38,526 nucleotides of DNA from a virus, in the IMG/VR virus record IMGVR_UViG_3300017671_000006, positions 1 through 38,526 of that record, one strand, 5' to 3'. Below, piece after piece: positions 16,564-25,965 of the stretch (its first letter is position 1; each line of letters opens with the position of its first letter). A program made the translations under genes and the position numbers. Under the pieces are notes generated by a model, which was not told where the DNA came from, searched no databases, and was given only the letters and a program-made list of their open reading frames with translations.

Positions 16564-16569
16564 GATGCG

Positions 16570-16620
16570 GCTATGCCCGGATGGCCGGGGCCGCAGTTAC
16601 CTGACGAATGTCCGACAGGT
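16570..16620 (-). promoter_or_regulatory. Predicted Mor/C-type activator site and promoter for the head operon
   Basis: On the minus strand, an imperfect dyad (16620-16599; arms ACCTGTCGGAC and TTCGTCAGGT) is followed by 23 nt and then CATAGC (16575-16570). If CATAGC is the -10 element, transcription would start at about the A of the protease ATG (16563), and the dyad centre would be near -46. The dyad matches the one before the lysin in 17 of 22 positions with identical spacing. Mu has a C-dependent promoter at the same place, before gene I. The rest of the gap 16621-16683 shows nothing else. Confidence 0.6.
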
Positions 16621-16683
16621 GCGGATCATCGTGCGATCATGGCTTAACCGGGTTGAAGGCCGCTGGCAATTGCCGCTTGGCGA

Positions 16684-17841
16684 TCACCGCTGCCAGATCT
16701 GTTTGCCACCACCCGCGTTGCGCAATCGCGCGGTACGCCATCCGGCGCGGCCGATGTCAAAAGCCACGTTGCCCCGGATATAGCGGCGCATCAGCATGGC
16801 CTTTCCTGCGCGGTCCAGAACCCATACCAGGCGGATGCTGTCGGGCTTGGCGAGCGCGCGTAAGCCCTGCTCGTACCTGCGCAGCTGTGATCCGCTCGGC
16901 AGCTGCATATCTCCTCGGGAATCGCGGAAGAGCCCAGCGCCGATCGCCAGCGGCCAGCCAGTGGCATCGCGCCAGATCGCGCCGCGCTGCAGCTTCCGGG
17001 CGTCGATCTCAAAGGGCCTCAAGAGCCGCCTCAAGACCCGCTCAGCGTCGTCTGACAGATCGGCAGCGGCAGTGGCGTCAGATTCGCCAGGCGCTCCAGG
17101 CATTGGCTTGGGTGCGAGCGGATCGAGATAGGCTTTGCCGACATTGAACGAGAAGCCTGGATCGATGCCGCGCTCGGTGCGCGTCAGCTCGCCGGTGCGG
17201 CGGTTCACGTAATCGCGCGCAGGAAAGCGGACGGGCTGCTCGGTCACGGTCTCGCCGCGCCGATCGAGCATGCGCTGGTTGACCGGCCGCGCGGTGCAGC
17301 GGCAGTTCCAGCCGCACGGCGGATAATGCGTATCCCACCAGGGATGATCGACCGGCAGGATGGTCTTGTGCCAGGCCCCATGCTCCGGTCGCTCGCGCCC
17401 GTCCTTCACCGATTCGTAGATCAGGAAGGGGAAGACTTTCTTCTGGCGCTCGATGCGCTCCCAGCGCCCGGCAGCATAGGCGCTGCGCAGGTTGGTATCG
17501 AAGATCGTGCGCAACCTTGCGGGGCTGCCGAGCTGGACGACGCGCTGCTCGCCGGTCAGCGGATCTGTCTCCAGGCTGCGACCCCACCAGCCACGCGCCA
17601 TCAGCAGCGGGGTGAGGTCCTGGCGAAAGGTTGCCAGCGTCGTGCCTTTGGTGATGGCATCGTCGACCGCCTGGCGGATGTCCTCCAGCAGATCGCGCGA
17701 CATGGCCTTGGCCACGGTGAACGCCTTGGCATGCTCCTCTTGCCAGACATCGCGCCAGTCGAAGCCGAAGGCGATACCCTTGGCGCGGAAGAACGCGATC
17801 GCCTCCTCAGGCAGCAGCTGCGGCGGTGTGTCTTCGACCAC
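16684..17841 (-). CDS. Mu F-like minor head protein (gp30) with C-terminal PBECR2-like nuclease domain
   Basis: 385 residues. The first ~205 are Mu F-like: LRTIFDTNLRSAYAAGRWER, KDGRERPEHGAWHKTILPVD, then WWDTHYPPCGWNCRC, the conserved head-morphogenesis motif. From about 275 a second module follows: FRDSRGDMQLPSGSQLRRYE, ALAKPDSIRLVWV and AGKAMLMRRYIRG. I recognise this as the PBECR2 (phage barnase-EndoU-colicin E5/D-RelE-like nuclease) pattern found fused to phage head proteins. It is thought to be an RNase-like effector delivered with the DNA; that role is predicted, not shown. Start is GTG at 17841, 1 nt after the upstream stop. Confidence 0.88.
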   Translation of the reverse strand: MVEDTPPQLLPEEAIAFFRAKGIAFGFDWRDVWQEEHAKAFTVAKAMSRDLLEDIRQAVDDAITKGTTLATFRQDLTPLLMARGWWGRSLETDPLTGEQRVVQLGSPARLRTIFDTNLRSAYAAGRWERIERQKKVFPFLIYESVKDGRERPEHGAWHKTILPVDHPWWDTHYPPCGWNCRCTARPVNQRMLDRRGETVTEQPVRFPARDYVNRRTGELTRTERGIDPGFSFNVGKAYLDPLAPKPMPGAPGESDATAAADLSDDAERVLRRLLRPFEIDARKLQRGAIWRDATGWPLAIGAGLFRDSRGDMQLPSGSQLRRYEQGLRALAKPDSIRLVWVLDRAGKAMLMRRYIRGNVAFDIGRAGWRTARLRNAGGGKQIWQR

Positions 17842-17842
17842 G

Positions 17843-18364
17843 CTATGCTCCGATCAGCGGGTGGCCGTCATCATCGGCCAGCGCAGCGCCGGCGTTGGCA
17901 GCGAGTATCCGCGTCAGCGACCAGCTGATCCGGCGATAGCGGACGAAGCCAGGTTCGAACCGGCCGCCCTGGCGTGCACGAAAGCCGGCGATGACGCCGA
18001 TTGCCTGATGGTGGCCGGCTATCGACAGGCAGGCGTCGATCGTTGCCTTGGCATTCTCGCTGTACCAGGCGCGGCGCACCAGGCCAGCGCCCTGGTCAAG
18101 GGCATGCAGGATGGTAACGCGGCCTGCCAGAATATCTTCGGGCAGCATCAGAGGATCGAGGCGGACTCGATCGGCCTGACCGAGCTGCAGCCCCGGCTCG
18201 ACCAGAAGGCCTCGCGCGGTTCCGTCCACAAGATGATCGAACCGCGGCGCATCTGCACCGGCCAGCACGATCGCGCCGGCCGCGTTCCGGTACGCGGCGG
18301 CCGTCGGTCGCGTGAACGCGAAGGCGATATCGAAATCGCCCTGGTCAAGGTCACCATCAGCCAT
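17843..18364 (-). CDS. Phage protein with FTRPTxxxY / APRFDH / GLLVEP motif
   Basis: 173 residues from the ATG at 18364, overlapping the portal stop by 8 nt. Residues ~14-55 hold the pattern FAFTRPTAAAYRNAAG ... APRFDH ... GLLVEP, a short module seen at the start of many phage spike and fibre-like virion proteins. The C-terminus has RRISWSLTRILAANAGAALA. Function is unknown. Its position between portal and F-like protein, where Mu has no gene, suggests an added capsid-associated or spike component. Confidence 0.65.
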   Translation of the reverse strand: MADGDLDQGDFDIAFAFTRPTAAAYRNAAGAIVLAGADAPRFDHLVDGTARGLLVEPGLQLGQADRVRLDPLMLPEDILAGRVTILHALDQGAGLVRRAWYSENAKATIDACLSIAGHHQAIGVIAGFRARQGGRFEPGFVRYRRISWSLTRILAANAGAALADDDGHPLIGA

Positions 18365-23571: not shown

Positions 23572-25965
23572 TTACAGTCCGATCGGCGTCACAAGCAGCA
23601 GCTTGGCGGTGAGGTTGGCGCGGTGCCTGGTTGCCAAGCCGCTCGGATCGGCAAAGTCATGAAGCGCGAACGATTCTCCAGGCAGCCATGCCTGCTTGAC
23701 CGTCTTGCCCGCCTTGGGTCCGCTCGGGATGACGTTCTGCGACCAGCTGCTATAGTCCCACGTCTTGAGCAGCGGCACGCGCGTCAATCGCTGAAACAGC
23801 ATCTGCGCCTCGCAGACGTTGGGCTTCTCGTCGTACTGATCATAGCCATCCAGGATGAACGTGCTGCGGAAGCCGTCGCCGCCCTTTGCAACCCGCCACA
23901 GATCGAGCCGGAATCGCATTGCGCCGATGTAGTAGCCGCGATCGTTATAGGGGCGGGCGGTATGTCCTGCCGTGCCGCCTGGGCCGGGCACGACGAGCTG
24001 GCGGTCGCTCCAGCCGAAGTTGAAGGTACGGGCGTTCATCGCCGTGGTGGCGATCGCGCCGGGAAATGTTCCGAGAACCTTGTACGTCCCGGCCCCGCCG
24101 AACGTGCCCGTCAGCTGCTCCCCGATGAAAAGCCCTGTGCCGTTAAAGCTGGTGAACGCGGTGTTGGTGTGGATCTGCATCAGCCCCTGCAACGTGCCGA
24201 CCACATCAGTCACGGTAAGAACAGCATCAGCCGTGCTCGTGCCCGTAAGGGTGCCAGTGAACGTGACCCAGCCAGTCGGGATCACCGACTGCGGTTCGGC
24301 GTTGTGGGCATGGTTGCAGAGCATACGGTCGGCGGTGTCCATGAAGGGCACGATGCTGTTCTCGTAGCTGCAGGACTGCCAGAAAGCATACTCGTCATCG
24401 CTGATCGTGTCGGGCCGACCCGGAATCCTGTCACGCCAGAAGCTCGCCCAGTTGGTGCGGCGCTCTTCCAGCTCGGCGAGGGAGCAGCCGCCCAAGGCGC
24501 GCACGCTGGAATAAGGCAGGCCGGTCAGGCCAATGGTGTCAGCACCCTCGCGCAGATACCACAGGCCGTTGCACGGCGATGAACCGCCGATCCCACGATT
24601 GATGGGCGTGGCGCTAACCTTGGCAGCCACTTGCACCGGCACGCTGCCGGTAATTCCGCCGCCCTGGTAAAGACTGTCGCCGTCGAACAGCAGCGTCTGG
24701 CCTCTGAAGGGGTTCATGATGTCGAGTAGCGCCGACTGATCTCGGCCATAGTTCGCTTCAGGCGCGCCGGTGATCAGTATCCGCACGTTGCGATCGCCGA
24801 AGTTGGTGATGGCCACATGCTCGGCGCCCACCGGCGCGACACGGGGGCCGGGCAGAACAACCGTGCCGAGATTGTCCGGGGTGCCATCGAGCCCGATTTC
24901 TTGCACATCGAGCACTCGGGCAAACTGCTTGGTCGTCGGGTTGAAGCCCTGACCGAATACGATCGCAGCAGTGACAGACCCGTTCTTGACCAGGTTATAG
25001 GGCAGAAGTGTCTGCCCGCCGCGGATCGGAAACACCTGAAAGTTCCACACCGAGGCCAGATCGACGAATGCGCCATTGACGTTGTAATAGCCGAGCGCTG
25101 GGTCCCACGGATGTTCTACGGCGGGCTGGTTGGCCAGGATGCCGGCGATTTCGTCAGCACGATCATCGTCCAGCGAGAGCCTTTCGACGATCACGCCGCC
25201 CTTGCGCAGCTTGCCATCGACGACAGTATCGGCGGCCCGAGCGGTGCCGCGCATGGTGACAGCACCAGCAGGCCAGACCACCCGCAGCTTTTCGAAATAG
25301 GTAATTCCCGTGCCAGGGCCCAAGCCGATGGGATCACCCACGATCGCATTGCCGGCATCGAAGAAGGACGCCGCATTCAGGATGGGGCTATCCACCATCA
25401 GGGTGATCTCGAAAATCTGGCCGGCGACACCGTCATCAACTTCATAAGCCCGCCAAGCGTCACTGGCGTTAAGGCCGCTGCCGGTCGCAAAATAGAAACC
25501 GTTTGCGATCGTCGGATTGGCGTTGATGAATTGCCCCAGCGCCAACCTTGCTGGGAACAGCGACTGCACCTGGGCGACGCTGGCGGCAGCAGCATCGGCA
25601 GCATCTTCCGCCTGGTCGACCAGGGCTTGCACTTCGGCGCTGGCATCGGCCGACAGCTTCTCGAACTGCTCCCAGGTGCCGACGCCCGACGCGCCAACCT
25701 TGCGATACCAGCCATTGAGCGCCGGATCTGGATCGGCGAAGACGAGCCCGACGCTATTGGCGTCATAATCCAGCAGGCCCTGCAGGTCTTCTTCGGTCTC
25801 GGTCGCTTCCTCGGTCGAGATCAGACGACCAAGGAGCTGGCGGATTTCCAGCTTTTGCATTGGTCCACCGGGCTCCTGCACCGCGGTCAGCGCAGTGGGG
25901 CTGACCGCGGTTGCCGCAGGCAGCTGCTCGAAGGATCGGGTCTCAAGCTCGCTCATTTGGGGCAT
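23572..25965 (-). CDS. Large tail-fibre-like protein with SGNH-hydrolase domain
   Basis: 797 residues. N-terminal part: a short helical start, a LNGWYRKVG...GTWEQF virion-fibre motif near 84-101, and an Ala-rich coiled coil near 105-135. An SGNH/GDSL esterase-like core begins with block I LLFDGDSL (nucleophile Ser about 431) and block II NRGIGGSS (456-463). The block III and V residues are not clear. A Thr/Gly-rich beta insertion (TGTLTGTSTADAVLTVTD, about 570-640) splits the C-terminal half. Known SGNH fibres deacetylate surface polysaccharides. It is odd that it lies between spanins and holin, not in the tail module. The start could be 25965 (AAAGGA close upstream) or 25956 (ATGA overlap with Rz1). 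Confidence 0.78.
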   Translation of the reverse strand: MPQMSELETRSFEQLPAATAVSPTALTAVQEPGGPMQKLEIRQLLGRLISTEEATETEEDLQGLLDYDANSVGLVFADPDPALNGWYRKVGASGVGTWEQFEKLSADASAEVQALVDQAEDAADAAAASVAQVQSLFPARLALGQFINANPTIANGFYFATGSGLNASDAWRAYEVDDGVAGQIFEITLMVDSPILNAASFFDAGNAIVGDPIGLGPGTGITYFEKLRVVWPAGAVTMRGTARAADTVVDGKLRKGGVIVERLSLDDDRADEIAGILANQPAVEHPWDPALGYYNVNGAFVDLASVWNFQVFPIRGGQTLLPYNLVKNGSVTAAIVFGQGFNPTTKQFARVLDVQEIGLDGTPDNLGTVVLPGPRVAPVGAEHVAITNFGDRNVRILITGAPEANYGRDQSALLDIMNPFRGQTLLFDGDSLYQGGGITGSVPVQVAAKVSATPINRGIGGSSPCNGLWYLREGADTIGLTGLPYSSVRALGGCSLAELEERRTNWASFWRDRIPGRPDTISDDEYAFWQSCSYENSIVPFMDTADRMLCNHAHNAEPQSVIPTGWVTFTGTLTGTSTADAVLTVTDVVGTLQGLMQIHTNTAFTSFNGTGLFIGEQLTGTFGGAGTYKVLGTFPGAIATTAMNARTFNFGWSDRQLVVPGPGGTAGHTARPYNDRGYYIGAMRFRLDLWRVAKGGDGFRSTFILDGYDQYDEKPNVCEAQMLFQRLTRVPLLKTWDYSSWSQNVIPSGPKAGKTVKQAWLPGESFALHDFADPSGLATRHRANLTAKLLLVTPIGL

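Follow-up and report, generated by a model that had tools for sequence, protein, structure and literature searches.

The C-terminal domain of a phage Mu F-like minor head protein is probably a disarmed PBECR2 domain

The Mu F-like minor head protein (F) encoded in the window, the 38,526-nucleotide stretch of viral DNA analysed here (IMG/VR record IMGVR_UViG_3300017671_000006), ends in a domain that we consider, with a probability of about 70%, to be a disarmed PBECR2 that now serves the protein as a structural part, a connector or a binder of nucleic acid. In this phage the domain is probably a leftover or connector and not a working toxin. Fusions of MuF to PBECR, an inactive example in phage Mu (PMC5512222) and the MuF polymorphic toxins are already published; the present analysis adds an entire lineage, well supported, that has conserved the domain without its presumed catalytic residues and in which fresh toxins repeatedly appear behind it.

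Results

The head genes of the window lie on the minus strand in a Mu-type order: a gp27-like protein, the large terminase, Portal_Mu, a 173-residue protein, F, a Mu-like protease and the gpT major head subunit. Because this gene order is accompanied by a Mu transposase (DDE_2) and a tail sheath, both encoded away from the head genes, the record is, on its gene content, that of a transposable Mu-like myophage. The minus strand also holds a 797-residue reading frame without any Pfam match (23572-25965). F itself scored 73 bits against Phage_Mu_F, for which the curated cut-off is 29.6, and matched phrog_220 (minor head protein and DNA pilot) with an E value of 1.2e-89; it is flanked by Portal_Mu upstream and the Mu-like protease downstream. 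The Mu F-like head protein that the initial annotation had placed at this locus was therefore borne out (Table 1), but the coordinates given for it, 16684-17600, left out about 240 coding bases at the 5' end of the reading frame. F is likely to be a head component of the virion, near the portal. F proteins of related Mu-headed phages have been detected in virions by mass spectrometry (PMC5488378); they are distantly related to the window F, and no PBECR domain is recognised in them. The C-terminus of the window F may be delivered into the host.

Relatives of F were found in sphingomonads (Sphingomonadales), among the closest being an 86% identical protein from a prophage of Blastomonas natatoria. 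When 401 genomes of the order were surveyed, relatives turned up in 15, and, besides Blastomonas, two of these 15 genomes matched far into the C-terminal domain. In one genome of the same order a relative (L121; 64% identity over residues 9-181) lies inside a 746-residue open frame.

Table 1. Features of the F locus in the window and the evidence for each.
Feature	Position	Strand	Evidence
Mu F-like minor head protein, 385 aa, GTG start	16684..17841	-	Phage_Mu_F E 4.1e-20; phrog_220; 86% relatives with same start
MuF domain, residues 54-184	17290..17682	-	Pfam PF04233; TIGR01641 SPP1 gp7 minor capsid
Degenerate PBECR2-like C-terminal domain, residues 263-385	16687..17055	-	PF18810 sub-threshold; canonical-relative profile; AlphaFold2 pLDDT 93
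Gln319, aligned with canonical helix Arg	16885..16887	-	Alignment A2, residue count
W368-R-T-A-R372, altered G-W-x-G-(V/I)-(T/S) strand; Arg372 replaces Thr/Ser	16726..16740	-	Alignment A2, residue count
173-aa protein between portal and F; earlier immunity candidate	17843..18364	-	phrog_5939 tail E 5.9e-8; distribution
120-bp gap, F to protease gene; tip site in relatives, empty here	16564..16683	.	Three-frame translation

The initial annotation had assigned the C-terminus of F to PBECR2. Against the Pfam profile (PF18810) the match was both sub-threshold and partial, with a score of 20.6 bits (E 5.4e-4; curated cut-off 27.1) over profile positions 7-77 of 120; the 3' part, where the catalytic-type strand lies, was left unmatched. 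Full-length PBECR2 matches in MuF relatives reached up to 106 bits, and the Rhodobacter phages RcapMu and RcWaterboi and the Rhizobium phage RR1-B scored 86-105 bits. A second profile was built only from relatives that passed Pfam PBECR2 (canonical relatives), leaving out all sequences of the window clade, and against this profile the window domain scored 44-48 bits. Since the best score in a shuffle control was 11.2 bits (4,408 of 5,000 shuffles gave a score), the profile comparison confirmed that the last ~120 residues of F are homologous to PBECR2, beyond chance. A domain scan with a single canonical domain as the query returned only the query itself. Both the family and the architecture of MuF plus PBECR had thus been named correctly, the latter being one that was already described (PMC5512222).

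According to the authors who defined these families, the PBECR active site consists of a helix histidine, for which one of the six families has arginine, together with a Thr or Ser of a C-terminal strand, and PBECR2 belongs to BECR (PMC5512222). Residue conservation suggests that PBECR2 is the arginine-bearing family; the catalytic residues referred to here derive from this conservation and the published clade description, not from biochemistry. In alignment A2 every one of the 10 canonical relatives had the helix Arg, the Trp of a PDEIW motif and the Thr/Ser that ends the strand motif GW-x-G-(V/I)-(T/S), and a wider canonical set kept the same residues with single exceptions. The window protein has PDSIR in place of PDEIW, with Arg337 in the Trp position; its domain contains no histidine, and neither a helix His/Arg nor a strand Thr/Ser is found at the aligned positions, which are occupied by Gln319 and Arg372. 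Among 30 aligned members of the window clade the helix Arg was present in three, the PDEIW Trp in none, and Arg together with Thr/Ser in none; further members found by a domain-only scan and read by eye had the same residue pattern. These results left the earlier reading of the domain as an active toxin unsupported, as neither of the two presumed active-site residues is kept in the window protein and the pair never occurs together in the clade. If the domain did cut host or competitor RNA after injection, as its homology to PBECR2 would allow, it would do so with shifted residues such as Thr370 and Arg321/322, which lie near the lost positions. Thr370 and the neighbouring arginines are indeed kept in the two closest relatives, but the shifted threonine is not conserved beyond the closest three sequences.

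In a tree of the MuF core the window clade formed one group (support 99/98), and the canonical forms fell to one side of a branch. Because the clade is a single supported group and the canonical forms lie across this branch, the simplest account would be that the presumed catalytic residues were lost once, at the base of the lineage. The domain is under purifying selection, with a dN/dS of 0.13-0.22 compared to 0.07-0.09 for the MuF core, a result also compatible with an active enzyme. It is predicted to fold compactly: the AlphaFold2 model (Table 1) consists of helices followed by five strands, and this linear order of elements is consistent with BECR. Comparison with the RelE/barnase fold, suggested in the initial annotation as a check, went no further than this agreement in element order, as Foldseek searches of PDB and BFVD with the domain returned no match at E <= 0.001 and no BECR nuclease, which counts against an active RNase. 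With the whole F model Foldseek likewise gave no match at E <= 0.001, and a profile search of solved structures, using both mixed and canonical-only alignments, produced only chance-level matches.

The 173-residue protein between the portal and F had been put forward as the nearest candidate for an immunity protein. The reading frame exists, but its distribution contradicts this role, and its phrog match is to a tail protein. The protein has no Pfam domain and is inserted between portal and F in many clade members; it was kept in relatives with an ADP-ribosyltransferase (ART) tip, a PBECR3-like tip or no tip (see below), whereas several tip-bearing loci lack it, and at the canonical PBECR2 loci L031-L033 and L037 the portal is followed by F without an intervening gene. 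The immunity assignment was consequently rejected, the gene being independent of toxin content and absent beside intact PBECR2, and from its sequence match the product is more likely a virion or tail-type protein. Directly downstream of F only 120 bp separate it from the protease gene, a space into which no gene of useful size fits. The want of a candidate immunity gene is a further point against an active RNase.

Many F proteins of the clade run past the domain into a linker, which often contains YDPxQxRDxxGRW, and end 120-200 residues later. The resulting tip was an ADP-ribosyltransferase in L004 (ADPrib_exo_Tox, E 9.8e-15) and PBECR3, over the cut-off, in L006 and L011, other tips being weaker PBECR3-like sequences with an HG motif. 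Exchangeable tips of the ADP-ribosyltransferase or PBECR3-like kind were seen after the disarmed domain at the C-termini of the close relatives L004, L006, L011, L013, L014, L098 and L147. On the MuF-core tree the presence of a tip switches about nine times, and at least four of these switches are forced by well-supported branches. The domain and the tips showed no similarity in a profile-profile comparison. At another locus a complete-looking PBECR3-like tip lies in frame beyond the stop codon that ends F (L083:5207-5800). In the window, three-frame translation of the 120-bp gap downstream of F revealed no remnant of a decayed tip in any frame, and F has a sub-threshold PBECR2 but no tip, and so lacks the known C-terminal toxin domain that marks a MuF polymorphic toxin. 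Because the tips of the relatives follow the domain and the window frame ends with it, the position of the polymorphic effector seems to have shifted outward by one domain in this lineage. The addition of a second toxin behind the domain in many relatives also speaks against the domain itself being an active RNase.

Discussion

The account that we favour places the loss of the presumed catalytic residues of PBECR2 at the base of one lineage of Mu-like phages from sphingomonads, in which F then retained the domain. The disarmed domain would not cut RNA but would have a structural, connector or nucleic-acid-binding role in F. Behind it is an extra C-terminal slot, empty in the window phage, which holds a variety of toxin domains in related phages; where a tip is present, the tip may act as the effector, entering the host together with the DNA. 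A more specific version, in which a toxin domain disarmed once became a fixed connector or docking module into which new toxins were repeatedly plugged and from which they were lost, is tentative, and we would sooner bet against it than on it. Were it true, F would combine two toxins, the first dead and the second exchangeable.

A history without any toxin stage is unlikely; under it, PBECR2 would be a structural head domain or portal-contact domain of F proteins, and its nuclease label a distant computational assignment invalid for this lineage. Such a history would fit the absence of a significant structural match for the window domain, the failure of the mixed and canonical profiles to match solved nucleases at the sequence level, and the canonical loci (L031-L033, L037) that likewise have no gene between portal and F. 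However, the polar residues that never vary in canonical members, together with their Thr/Ser strand, resemble an active site, the BECR assignment was made by the authors of the family (PMC5512222), and the C-termini of many MuF relatives have no PBECR2 match. An active, injected RNase working through shifted residues is improbable in the light of the changes at both conserved canonical positions and the other observations set against it above.

For the disarmed domain that we prefer, the Mu-like phages offer close parallels. In RcapMu, RcWaterboi and RR1-B, PBECR2 occupies the same C-terminal place in a Mu F-like protein within a Mu-like head gene order, and the alignment of the window domain with these starts at the first helices and reaches the second long strand. 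In the window clade, unlike these, the helix Arg, the Trp of PDEIW and the Thr/Ser of the strand are missing, and the last strands are shorter. Phage Mu gp30 (F) likewise ends in a PBECR-type domain described as catalytically inactive, for which an RNA-binding role was thought probable (PMC5512222); this domain was named apart (MuF-C) by the authors, and it is likened to the window domain by description, not by alignment. A PBECR match in a head protein need not, then, denote a live toxin. The MuF polymorphic toxins combine a MuF head domain with exchangeable C-terminal toxins (PMC5576092, PMC12226406), and an unassigned C-terminal domain, Ct_MAD, has been reported from proteobacterial phages (PMC5576092). 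A disarmed PBECR2 bearing exchangeable tips was not found described in the open-licence literature. The canonical, disarmed and disarmed-plus-tip forms provide a natural set for probing the role of the domain in the particle. Unlike the polymorphic toxins, the tip-bearing relatives show no evident small immunity gene just after F; the window protein differs in having no tip, whereas its relatives have tips, and in these the disarmed PBECR2 is held between MuF and the tip.
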